A stretch of 64,000 bases of DNA from Candidatus Arsenophonus triatominarum (GTDB lineage: Bacteria; Pseudomonadota; Gammaproteobacteria; Enterobacterales; Enterobacteriaceae), in contig NZ_LWMI01000001.1 in NCBI RefSeq assembly GCF_001640365.1, positions 1 to 64,000 of the forward strand, read 5' to 3'. A program made the position numbers and the translations under genes. The notes beneath the pieces were generated by a model. That model searched no databases, was not told where the DNA came from, and saw only the letters and a program-made list of their open reading frames with translations. Below, one piece after another: positions 47,288 through 64,000 of the stretch (position 1 is the stretch's first letter; the number at the start of each line of letters is the position of its first letter).

Positions 47288-49361
<2,074 letters not shown>

Positions 49362-49921: not shown

Positions 49922-50190
49922 AAGACCTCCGATGGTTTTCTAAATTTACTCACCACCGTTGAGGTCAATCTTGGGTGGTGAACTGAACAGGGTTGACCTT
50001 ACCGGGAAAACCAACCGGCCAGCTTTTCAGCTGCCCCATCCAGCCCACCATTGAATGTAGCTAGATTACGACATTAAAAAAACACGCTCGCGGCGTGCAT
50101 ATGTCGCGGCTTTCTCTGCGAGAGGTCAATCCCGACATCTGATTTATCAGATGCAAGTAAACTATAGCGCATGATTTCTTTTTTCGTCAA
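49922..50190 (-). promoter_or_regulatory. C4-like antisense-RNA leader, locus 1
   Basis: Promoter TTGACG (50190-50185) - 18 bases - TATAGT (50166-50161). The early transcript has ATTGACCTC (50130-50122) and a terminator CACGC-CGCGA-GCGTG-T7 (near 50098-50072). Further down, AGGTCAACCC (50000-49991) is complementary to that block, and a second ATTGACCTC (49969-49961) sits before the GGAGGTC Shine-Dalgarno. This is the logic of the P1/P7 c4 switch: a short processed RNA pairs with the leader of the ant gene. Confidence 0.6.
50072..50155 (-). ncRNA. Putative C4-type antisense RNA, locus 1
   Basis: Short transcript from the TATAGT promoter to the T7 terminator, about 80 bases, with a GCATCTGA…TCAGATG hairpin and the block complementary to the downstream leader. 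Analogue of the RNA predicted at 62041-62107. Ends are inferred, not measured. Confidence 0.55.
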
Positions 50191-61245: not shown

Positions 61246-61632
61246 ATGGTTATTGGAATTCAGATTACTAAGGCAGCTAATACAGCACTATTAAATTCCT
61301 TTTGGTTATTAGACGACGAAAAAAATGAAGCTCGCTGTATTTGCGCTAAAACTGCTTTTAATGAAGGACAAATTGTTGTCAAGGAGTTGTTAGGTTCGTT
61401 TGAATATCGTGGAATTCTCCTTGAGGTTAAACCGCAGGTGTTAGTAGAAGGCGGACAACATTTAAATGTTAATGTTCTGACTCGGGAAACATTAGAAGAT
61501 GCGATTGAAAATCCAGAAAAATATCCTCAATTAACCATTCGTGTTTCAGGCTATGTATGCGGTGCGTTTTAATTCTTTAACCCTGGGCAGCAACGCGATG
61601 TTATTACGCGTACTTTTACGCAAAGTTTATAA
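61246..61632 (+). pseudogene. grcA: Autonomous glycyl radical cofactor GrcA, frameshifted at the radical site
   Basis: [20 protein letters not shown] … [20 protein letters not shown] and TIRVSGY match the stand-in for the damaged C-terminus of pyruvate formate-lyase. After RVSGY a 4-base tandem duplication (TATG) shifts the frame and gives a stop at 61570-61572; AVRFNSL and, after a second one-base loss, GQQRDVITRTFTQSL can be read beyond. RBS GGAG is eight bases before the ATG. It adjoined ung before the insertions. Confidence 0.88.
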
Positions 61633-61788: not shown

Positions 61789-62008
61789 CAAATAAAAACA
61801 TAAAACTGAAATATCAATAAGTTATAAAAATATAGCTCATTTAATATACGCATTTAAACGTAAAAACAAGCGATTTCACTCACTATAAATCAATTACTTA
61901 CAACTTATAGTGAGTTCTAATTTTAGCTGAAATCTCAGTTTTAATTCACCCTTTTTAAATTCCCAAATAACCTTAATCATTCGTTTAACTAAGAATATAA
62001 AATACCCA

Positions 62009-62249
62009 TTGACGAAAGAAGAAATCATGCGCTATAGTCTCTATCAGGTGCTTGAAACCACCTTCTACGAGCGGATATCCGCACCCGACAGTCTAGCGGT
62101 TTTTTTACGTCCATAGATTATGGTCGGGTAGCGAACAGAAAATACAAAACCCTGAAAAGGGGAAAACTGTTGGCCGTCTCGTAGCGGGTTTCAAGTACCC
62201 GACCGCCCTACTGAAACTAGGGTTTTATAAATCTACGAGGACGTAAAAT
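62009..62249 (+). promoter_or_regulatory. C4-like antisense-RNA leader, locus 2
   Basis: Promoter TTGACG (62009-62014) - 18 - TATAGT (62033-62038), the same as at locus 1. CTTGAAACC (62051-62059) pairs with GGTTTCAAG (62187-62195), CTACGAG (62065-62071) with CTCGTAG (62178-62184), and GGTCGGGTA (62122-62130) with TACCCGACC (62196-62204). A second CTACGAG (62233-62239) overlaps the Shine-Dalgarno, so CTCGTAG can pair either with the small RNA or with the ribosome site. Confidence 0.7.
62041..62107 (+). ncRNA. Putative C4-type antisense RNA, locus 2
   Basis: From the promoter to CCGC…GCGG followed by seven T (62080-62107). Contains both complementary blocks used against the downstream leader and a CGGATATCCG hairpin. 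Resembles C4 RNAs upstream of ant genes in P1-like and enterobacterial prophages. Confidence 0.65.
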
Positions 62250-63002
62250 ATGAATAGTCAAATAACAACCATTCCTAATGTATTTATTCACGATGGGAAA
62301 GCTATAACTACCTCTCGCCAAGTAGCTTCATATTTTGGTAAACAGCATTTTCATGTCATTGAAAAAATCAAAAATCTAGAATGCTCTGAGCAATTCTTAA
62401 CCATCAACTTTTCGAGGGTTCCGTTTGAACATAACGGAAATGTATACGAAGAGTACGAAATGACTAAAGATGGCTTCGTATTCTTGGTGATGGGATTTAC
62501 AGGCAAGAAAGCAGCGCAATTCAAGGAAGCCTACATTGCTGAATTCAACCGCATGGAATCAAAACTTCACTCTGCACCAAAATACCAACCTGAAGCACAT
62601 GAAAAGTTCAGCAACAAAGATACCCAAAATCTCGCTCGTATCATCGCTCTCATGACTCAAAACTTTCGTTTTAGAGATGCATGGAATAATGCCATCTGGT
62701 ATGCATTACGAGAAGTCACCGGTATCCCCTCACCTTATTCGATGGAAGTACGACTAGTTCCTTCTATCGCTTCTGAGTGTGAGCGTATTTGGCATGTAAC
62801 AGAGCATTTACAAGATGTCATAGCGGATGCAGAGAAAACAGCGATTAAACGAATTATCCGCAAACGTGAAAATGCAGATAGAGTTATTGCTGAAATAGAA
62901 ACTTTGTTATCTCAGGCTACACAGGATAACCAGCTAATGCTAAATGTTGCACTCTCAGGTTGGCATAAAGCGGAATTGACTCACTTCCTCCAGCGCTGCT
63001 AA
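62250..63002 (+). CDS. Rha/antirepressor-family phage regulatory protein, intact
   Basis: 250 residues. N-terminal Rha domain: FIHDGKAITTSRQVASYFGK, EMTKDGFVFLVMGFTGKKAA and FKEAYIAEFNRME; middle HEKFSNKDTQNLARIIALMT; C-terminal domain VRLVPSIASECERIWHVTEH to LSGWHKAELTHFLQRC. GAGGA lies before the ATG. Acts probably as an antirepressor or lytic regulator, under the C4-like leader. Truncated homolog at 49435. Confidence 0.8.
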   Translation: MNSQITTIPNVFIHDGKAITTSRQVASYFGKQHFHVIEKIKNLECSEQFLTINFSRVPFEHNGNVYEEYEMTKDGFVFLVMGFTGKKAAQFKEAYIAEFNRMESKLHSAPKYQPEAHEKFSNKDTQNLARIIALMTQNFRFRDAWNNAIWYALREVTGIPSPYSMEVRLVPSIASECERIWHVTEHLQDVIADAEKTAIKRIIRKRENADRVIAEIETLLSQATQDNQLMLNVALSGWHKAELTHFLQRC

Positions 63003-63139
63003 TATGATGCCCCTGTGATGGGGCTGTTTGTTTAAGGTTAAGGTGAATAATGTTCAAAGAAAATCAAAGCTACCAAAAAGCGGTTAATTCCACCCAGCAA
63101 AGATAGTGAAGTCTGGATGGCAAGGTTGGCAAATGGCAC

Positions 63140-63368: not shown

Positions 63369-63858
63369 ATGGCTAAAAAATTCACCCCAACGCCCCATGA
63401 TGCGGTATTTAAGCAGTTTTTAAGTGAAAAAGAGACCGCTAAAGATTTCTTTGATATCTGGCTACCGGATGAGATTAAGGCACTGTGTGACTTAGATAGC
63501 CTCAAAGTGGAATCTGGCTCATTTGTTGATAGTGAGATGAAAAACTACCAGAGTGATATCCTGTATTCTGTCAAAACAGAAAAGGGACAAGGTTATCTCT
63601 ATTTGCTGATTGAACACCAATCAACCCCTGACAAGCTCATGACATGGCGACTCATGCGCTACAGTATGGCTGCCATGCAAAAGCATTTAGAGGCTGGTCA
63701 TAAAGAGTTGCCGCTGGTTTTTCCCATCCTGTTTTATTGCGGTGAGAAAAGCCCTCATCCGTATAGTACAGACTGGCTAGACTGCTTTAGTGGCAGAGAT
63801 ATTGCCGAAAAGATATACACCAAACCGTTTAAGCTAGTCGATGTCACCACGCTTGATG
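63369..63858 (+). pseudogene. Rpn-family nuclease gene truncated by IS3
   Basis: MAKKFTPTPHDAVFKQFLSE to LVDVTTLD, almost identical to the first 163 residues of the intact gene at 37780-38697, then the IS3 end. Catalytic-region residues (SDILYS, LLIEHQSTPDK) are present but the C-terminal ~140 residues are missing in the window. Confidence 0.85.
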
Positions 63859-64000
63859 TGTAGTGGCATACTAAATTTGGCCACCTAAGTTGAGGTGATA
63901 TGCTTACCTCATAATTTTTATAGGTGCCGAAATGAGTAAAATAATTACTGCTGAATTTAAATGTGAAACCGCCAAATTAGTCCTTGACCAAAATTACACC
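63859..64000 (+). mobile_element. IS3-family element copy Z, 5' end at window edge
   Basis: TGTAGTGGCATACTAAATTT onwards, orfA start at 63932 ([20 protein letters not shown]). Same as copies X and Y; it runs out of the window. Confidence 0.9.

Follow-up and report, generated by a model that had tools for sequence, protein, structure and literature searches.

A predicted three-site RNA switch with an sRNA-Xcc1 leader in front of an antirepressor-type gene of Candidatus Arsenophonus triatominarum

Towards its end, the window (the whole stretch of 64,000 nucleotides that was analysed, positions 1 to 64,000 of contig NZ_LWMI01000001.1) carries an open reading frame of the Rha type, which matches PF09669 in Pfam (E 1.8e-27) as well as PHROG families named Rha-like regulator and anti-repressor, and whose product probably acts as an antirepressor. 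The elements in front of this gene are given in Table 1. The heptamer CTCGTAG in the leader is the exact complement of two copies of CTACGAG, one located upstream and the other at the Shine-Dalgarno sequence of the gene. A sequence-only reading of the region had described this pairing, together with two neighbouring perfect helices of 9 bp, and had considered the switch complete; both helices are real, and a promoter-like site, a1, b1, the T7 run, b, a, b2, and the start codon are all present. The helix between a1 and a lies inside a longer helix of 13 pairs with one G-U pair, and a further perfect helix of 10 bp, absent from the sequence-only reading, connects the tail after the T run (62103–62112) with the Shine-Dalgarno and start region (62239–62248). 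Another reading frame (63369–63863, 164 aa) resembles by eye the front part of what we take to be an Rpn/PD-(D/E)XK transposase-family protein.

Table 1. Features of the predicted switch, the gene behind it, and a second module in the window.
Feature	Positions	Strand	Basis
Promoter-like site TTGACG-18-TATAGT	62009–62038	+	Consensus scan, 10/12 matches
Predicted short upstream RNA (a1b1/IsrK counterpart, putative decoy), ends approximate	62045–62106	+	Placed between promoter and T7
Upstream site a1, CTTGAAACC	62051–62059	+	Complementary to 62187–62195
Upstream code site b1, CTACGAG	62065–62071	+	Complementary to 62178–62184; same as 62233–62239
Terminator-like CCGC-13-GCGG-T7	62079–62106	+	Sequence; T7 at 62100–62106
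sRNA-Xcc1 element (RF02221), antisense part in C4 position	62122–62212	+	67 bits, cut-off 53
Closing stem, 62122–62130 with 62196–62204, 9 bp perfect	62122–62204	+	Pairing and Rfam match
Code hairpin CCG-TCTCGTAG-CGG; code b CTCGTAG at 62178–62184	62174–62187	+	Sequence
Leader site a, GGTTTCAAG	62187–62195	+	Complementary to a1
Downstream site a2, TGAAAC	62212–62217	+	Equals part of a1
Downstream code site b2, CTACGAG, over Shine-Dalgarno GAGGA (62237–62241)	62233–62239	+	Complementary to b
Rha-type ORF, 250 aa, start codon at 62250, predicted antirepressor	62250–63002	+	PF09669, PHROG
Second, classical module before a Rha-like ORF	49971–50154	-	isrK at 50154–50077, then C4 at 50055–49971

When positions 62030–62252 were shuffled with dinucleotides preserved, 18 of 20,000 shuffles produced a middle 7-mer complementary to both flanks (the 80 bases at the 5' end and the 30 bases at the 3' end); the comparative tests at other loci are far stronger evidence than this single-locus test. 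The predicted fold of the leader is better than that of shuffled sequences (z -2.64), whereas the short upstream RNA on its own folds no better than its shuffles (z -0.99). A scan that permits loops of up to 8 nt found no terminator at the T7 run, where the loop comprises 13 nt. The modelled accessibility of the Shine-Dalgarno sequence is 0.45 on its own, 0.32 with the leader, and 0.37 with the leader site blocked, which points to a weak effect of the leader at this locus. Pairing of b with b2 is missing from the predicted fold of the leader; it would be a pseudoknot, a structure beyond what the program can show. The calculated duplex gain amounts to -18.1 kcal/mol for the upstream site versus -8.2 kcal/mol for the ribosome-binding site (RBS).

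The leader matches the Rfam family sRNA-Xcc1 (RF02221) over the entire model (1–87 of 87; E 1.1e-11). The Rfam model of C4 (RF01695), the family to which the sequence-only reading had likened the locus, has no match between positions 61500 and 62700 at E values up to 10, which rules out membership; the same search gave no match for isrK (RF01394) and c4-a1b1 (RF03163). C4 and c4-a1b1 are placed in the Rfam clan CL00128; RF02221 belongs to no clan. The record of phage P1 annotates a1 (48255–48261), b1 (48269–48276), c4 (48343–48419), a2 (48423–48429), b2 (48452–48459), and icd (48470), and our script recovered the three-way sites GTTAGTG and TTGACAG in that phage. Because the order in P1 is a1, b1, c4, a2, b2, icd, the leader of the window occupies the place of C4 and the short upstream RNA that of a1b1 (IsrK). 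As in C4 systems, the antisense element lies between two target copies, the second of which covers the RBS, and a gene of antirepressor type (Rha-type by Pfam and PHROG) follows downstream; as in IsrK and c4-a1b1, the upstream RNA carries target copies 5' of the antisense element. The earlier proposal of a C4-type switch with competing helices in front of an antirepressor gene is borne out by this order and by the domain of the gene, and its likeness to the c4-ant design of P1 and P7 holds for the layout but fails for the RNA family. Its assignment of the roles has to be reversed: the short RNA, which had been taken for the C4-like partner, carries the sense sequence of the RBS and is hence an a1b1-type target copy, whereas the counterpart of C4 is the leader. 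The reading that best fits sRNA-Xcc1 is that of an antisense RNA of the C4 type, and by analogy with C4, the leader of the window would act in trans as a repressor.

Several known systems share parts of this architecture; the published sources here and below are cited for their accessible parts. C4 of P1 is a repressing antisense RNA (P1 record note; PMC12197685, PMC8546580). The C4 loci of P1 and P7 have in common with the window that a promoter is followed by a1b1, the antisense element, a2b2, and the start codon, in this order and (for annotated P1) with the same spacing, as well as the code over the RBS and the downstream antirepressor gene; they differ in the family of the RNA, and the window has no icd-like ORF between the switch and the antirepressor gene. 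The IsrK/STnc1160/orf45-anrP system of Gifsy-1 (RF01394) has a terminated short RNA, read-through to a pairing leader, and an antirepressor operon (PMC4825925), the arrangement also predicted for the window; unlike Gifsy-1, the window has no isrK match and no orf45-like reading frame in front. sRNA-Xcc1 of Xanthomonas campestris is of the same RNA family as the leader, but it is described as trans-acting and linked to virulence, with no antirepressor target named in the accessible text (PMC2996969). A stable sRNA-Xcc1 of 88 nt was mapped in Xanthomonas (PMC2996969), and a match of 89 nt in E. coli EDL933 is printed with reads as a table row (PMC5331693). The cI RNA of phage P4 is likewise an antisense RNA between two complementary sites, seqA and seqC, but acts on the termination of transcription, as described in PMC4825925.

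Matches to RF02221 are present in 51 of 299 genomes of the phylum (36 over the cut-off) and in none of 14 control genomes. After removal of the 21 weakest survey rows, the genome set comprised 89 places, 19 from the genome of Ca. A. triatominarum itself and 70 from other genomes, with exact duplicate leaders counted once. Matching of the three sites was assessed by swapping sites between loci and not by pair counts, because a MAFFT alignment misaligned the code sites; a covariance model built here (R1) was set aside because its automatic structure had only two base pairs. A downstream match of at least 7 nt exists in 49 of the 79 distinct leaders with enough sequence (11.5% in swapped loci) and an upstream match of this length in 73 of 77 (swapped, 25.8%). 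The same 7-mer is matched on both sides in 38 of 77 leaders, compared with a mean of 0.47 and a maximum of 4 in 2000 shuffled draws, and the upstream duplex is stronger than that at the RBS in 34 of these 38 loci.

Matching codes also recur in viral contigs, which were sampled with a core pattern that leaves the code untouched. At least 120 stretches were obtained, of which 80 were used first and the other 40 were kept as a hold-out; the counts include chance cores that are plainly not sRNA-Xcc1, and the viral sample overlaps slightly with the genome set (L177, L181, L204, and L220 are the same elements). Among the matches listed, the first 80 loci yielded 71 distinct leaders, with a downstream match of at least 7 nt in 60 (12.5% when swapped), an upstream match in 53 (21.2% when swapped), and the same 7-mer on both sides in 40. 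In the hold-out, opened after the reading had been fixed, 16 of 39 leaders match on both sides (shuffled mean 0.22, maximum 3; among the matches listed). For the viral loci as a whole, again among the matches listed, the count is 53 of 99 (shuffled mean 0.44, maximum 3), and shuffling the leaders alone against intact flank pairs gives a mean of 2.7 and a maximum of 10. When the genome set is combined with these 80 viral loci, 78 loci are three-way and contain 66 different matched words; 66 of the 78 loci have a run of five or more T between b1 and the leader, and likewise in 66 of the 78, a stem of 3 bp or more encloses the code (the viral part among the matches listed in both cases). The helix between the tail of the short RNA and the RBS region, which is strong at the window locus and its close relatives, was rejected as a family-wide feature: cognate pairs barely surpass swapped ones (over 70 rows, 191 of 5000 permutations did equally well; in the viral subset, 2945 of 5000, among the matches listed).

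Compensating changes are seen among closely similar alleles of Escherichia. Eight sequences (one phage, seven chromosomes), which in BLAST reach 88–100% identity with the phage copy across roughly 210 nt, carry three codes (TGCAAAG in four, TCGAAAG in three, ATACAAG in one), and in each allele, all three sites carry the code of that allele; L284 and L295 even share the start of the coding sequence and differ in the code. The RefSeq names of the genes behind the seven chromosomal copies are antA/AntB antirepressor, BRO family, or P22AR C-terminal domain, and the element is present in 112 of 5426 E. coli genomes (coverage of at least 80%). In four E. coli prophages (L292, L293, L296, L297), antirepressor-type genes stand in series around the switch, which is preceded by an Ant, ORF6N, Rha, or AntA gene and followed by an AntA, BRO, or P22AR gene.

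The genome of Ca. A. triatominarum itself contains 19 matches to RF02221, 18 of them above the cut-off, and all 19 loci show a three-way 7-mer, with nine codes (CTACGAG, GATATAG, TCGTAAG, CAACGAG, CAAGTAG, CTAACAG, CTAATGT, TGTAAAG, and CATTCAG). For the 12 distinct sets, no other upstream duplex of the row surpasses the cognate one in any set (12 of 12), and at the RBS the cognate duplex ranks first in 9 of 12; none of 20,000 permutations is as good for either site. Related modules occur on Arsenophonus plasmids. These plasmids and some APSE phages share an identical stretch of 37–39 nt around the promoter-like site, and all five plasmid records that match positions 61900–63050 are from Arsenophonus nasoniae or A. 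apicola. Of the 19 phage records obtained by a BLAST search with the window element, just one matches over a long stretch, and in most the match is confined to the promoter part. On plasmid L288, the promoter of the window type is followed by isrK and C4; on plasmids L289 and L290, the same promoter precedes C4, with isrK and c4-a1b1 just below their cut-offs; and plasmid L287 carries the sRNA-Xcc1 form in front of a Rha gene. Judging from these sequences, the type of module is swapped while its position and the type of gene remain.

The best explanation of positions 62009–62249 is a three-site switch with the layout of P1 C4, in which the loop of sRNA-Xcc1 likely represses the predicted antirepressor gene and the predicted upstream RNA would relieve this repression as a decoy; we assign it a probability of about three in four. 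The three sites, their order, the RF02221 match, and the three-way matching of many codes elsewhere can be read directly from the nucleotides; repression by a loop complementary to the RBS is suggested by analogy with P1 C4, and relief by the upstream RNA by analogy with IsrK together with the greater modelled strength of the upstream duplex. A single promoter would give rise to two transcripts, a short RNA that stops at the T run and a read-through RNA, and the loop would cover the Shine-Dalgarno sequence either within the read-through RNA or after processing to an RNA of about 88 nt, as with sRNA-Xcc1 of Xanthomonas. Excess short RNA would bind the loop via 9 + 7 bp and free the RBS, the antirepressor would be made, and the prophage would be induced. 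This switch is supported by IsrK, because the IsrK short RNA, in the same position, turns on its long mRNA in trans (PMC4825925), and by the Arsenophonus plasmids, because they carry C4-type modules behind the same promoter. It is weakened by the small shift in Shine-Dalgarno accessibility and the lack of b-b2 pairing in the predicted fold, by the negative terminator scan, by the absence of an exact three-way 7-mer in 46 of 99 viral elements (among the matches listed) and 39 of 77 genomic elements, and by one Xanthomonadaceae-like clade without a cognate RBS match.

The T run between b1 and the leader, so common among the three-way loci, would also agree with a switch that acts only in cis and mainly on transcription, where pairing between leader and upstream region decides whether the polymerase passes the T run, comparable to cI and seqA of P4; such a role has been discussed for P4 and for STnc1160 (PMC4825925). 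We regard this as rather unlikely, since it leaves unexplained why a copy of the code with matching changes lies over the RBS. A switch that survives at this locus as the unexpressed remnant of a decayed prophage would fit its surroundings, because the region from 56 to 64 kb shows short ORFs that resemble transposase fragments by eye and no obvious phage block; the exact three sites, the promoter-like site, the completeness of the ORF and of its Rha domain match, and the folding score of the leader make this quite improbable. It is very unlikely that repression comes from the short upstream RNA, which would lock the RBS by pairing with the leader, as the sequence-only reading had it: this RNA has its predicted end at the T run, and its pairing with the leader is stronger than that of the RBS, but it has the sense sequence of the RBS and occupies the very bases that would cover it, and in the same place, the a1b1 of P1 are target sites and IsrK activates (PMC4825925).

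The genes behind the viral elements are, by their domains, commonly of antirepressor types. Among the matches listed, the 58 ORFs of the viral set (57 behind viral elements plus that of the window) include Rha (11), KilA-N (11), P22_AR_N (7), ORF6N (7), AntA (6), Bro-N (6), and P22_AR_C (12) domains, where one ORF may count more than once, and as many as 28 of the 58 match one and the same PHROG anti-repressor family. The 54 ORFs from other genomes comprise Rha (4), SymE (4), Bro-N (3), P22_AR_N (1), KilA-N (1), and a few others, and many matched no family; these domain tallies leave out ten further ORFs of the own genome. An exact three-way 7-mer accompanies six of the ten SymE-matching ORFs (L083, L090, L256–L259) and is absent at the other four (second element of L090, L112, L261, L279). 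With L254, a broken symE-like frame that has the 7-mer, and L255, SymE-like by eye only and without it, the SymE-type loci reach 7 of 12. A SymE protein search of the genome contigs found 11 loci, with just two close relatives. In Xanthomonas, sRNA-Xcc1 with symE is the most widespread integron cassette, sRNA-Xcc1 lies upstream of symE, and the regulation of the cassette is termed divergent (PMC12444791); the SymE loci examined here probably carry the same cassette.

The clade without an RBS match belongs to the G284 family, in which 6 of 28 ORFs match SymE; we call the family Xanthomonadaceae-like because its SymE is 86–88% identical to that of Pseudoxanthomonas. Its sRNA-Xcc1 elements of 83–87 nt (L260–L282) have a cognate upstream partner and no RBS match within 800 nt, and a script covering 60–800 nt downstream found no target match at 23 loci of the family. 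At 20 distinct loci without a three-way match, upstream pairing is kept (0 of 5000 permutations as good) and cognate pairing with the RBS is not (4947 of 5000). The RNA pair of this clade may have a distant target. Two Pseudoxanthomonas genomes (L120, L121) have an a1b1-like piece directly before symE, just before position 1501, and the stretch read there contains no sRNA-Xcc1 element.

The design of the switch is already known from C4, IsrK, and P4 cI; what appears to be new is that sRNA-Xcc1 provides the antisense component, along with the number of codes in use and the involvement of SymE. In the accessible literature, which excludes most subscription papers, sRNA-Xcc1 co-occurs with symE (PMC12444791) and with tabulated C4 and isrK matches (PMC12189769), and none of the accessible passages links it to antirepressors or to C4. 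On balance, we favour the view that sRNA-Xcc1 is a portable lock of the C4 type, which serves phage antirepressors with freely changing immunity-group codes and has also been taken over for SymE toxins. Because the code differs between elements, each code would define one RNA immunity group, a possible molecular basis of heteroimmunity in cells with many prophages. In the integron cassette of Xanthomonas, sRNA-Xcc1 would be the RNA antitoxin of SymE, a possible reason for its placement upstream of symE. An Rfam family mentioned in several genome papers with regard to virulence would thereby gain a mechanism and an adjacent target, and E. coli would offer natural alleles of an RNA interaction that can be re-coded freely. 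The family has 15 copies in Aeromonas salmonicida J223 (PMC8780938) and is among the vesicle sRNAs of Xylella (PMC12189769).

C4 itself is also represented in the genome of Ca. A. triatominarum. There are 17 matches, including nine near-identical orphans in one repeated context (L037, L038, L042–L046, L049, L050); a three-way check, in which L037, L042, and L044 plus L050 represented six of the nine, found no match on both sides, and the orphans might be RNA-only immunity elements or relics. The Rha-like ORF behind the second module of the window (163 aa) seems short in comparison with its relatives. Within this one window, like genes are served by antisense RNAs of two separate families, sRNA-Xcc1 and C4.
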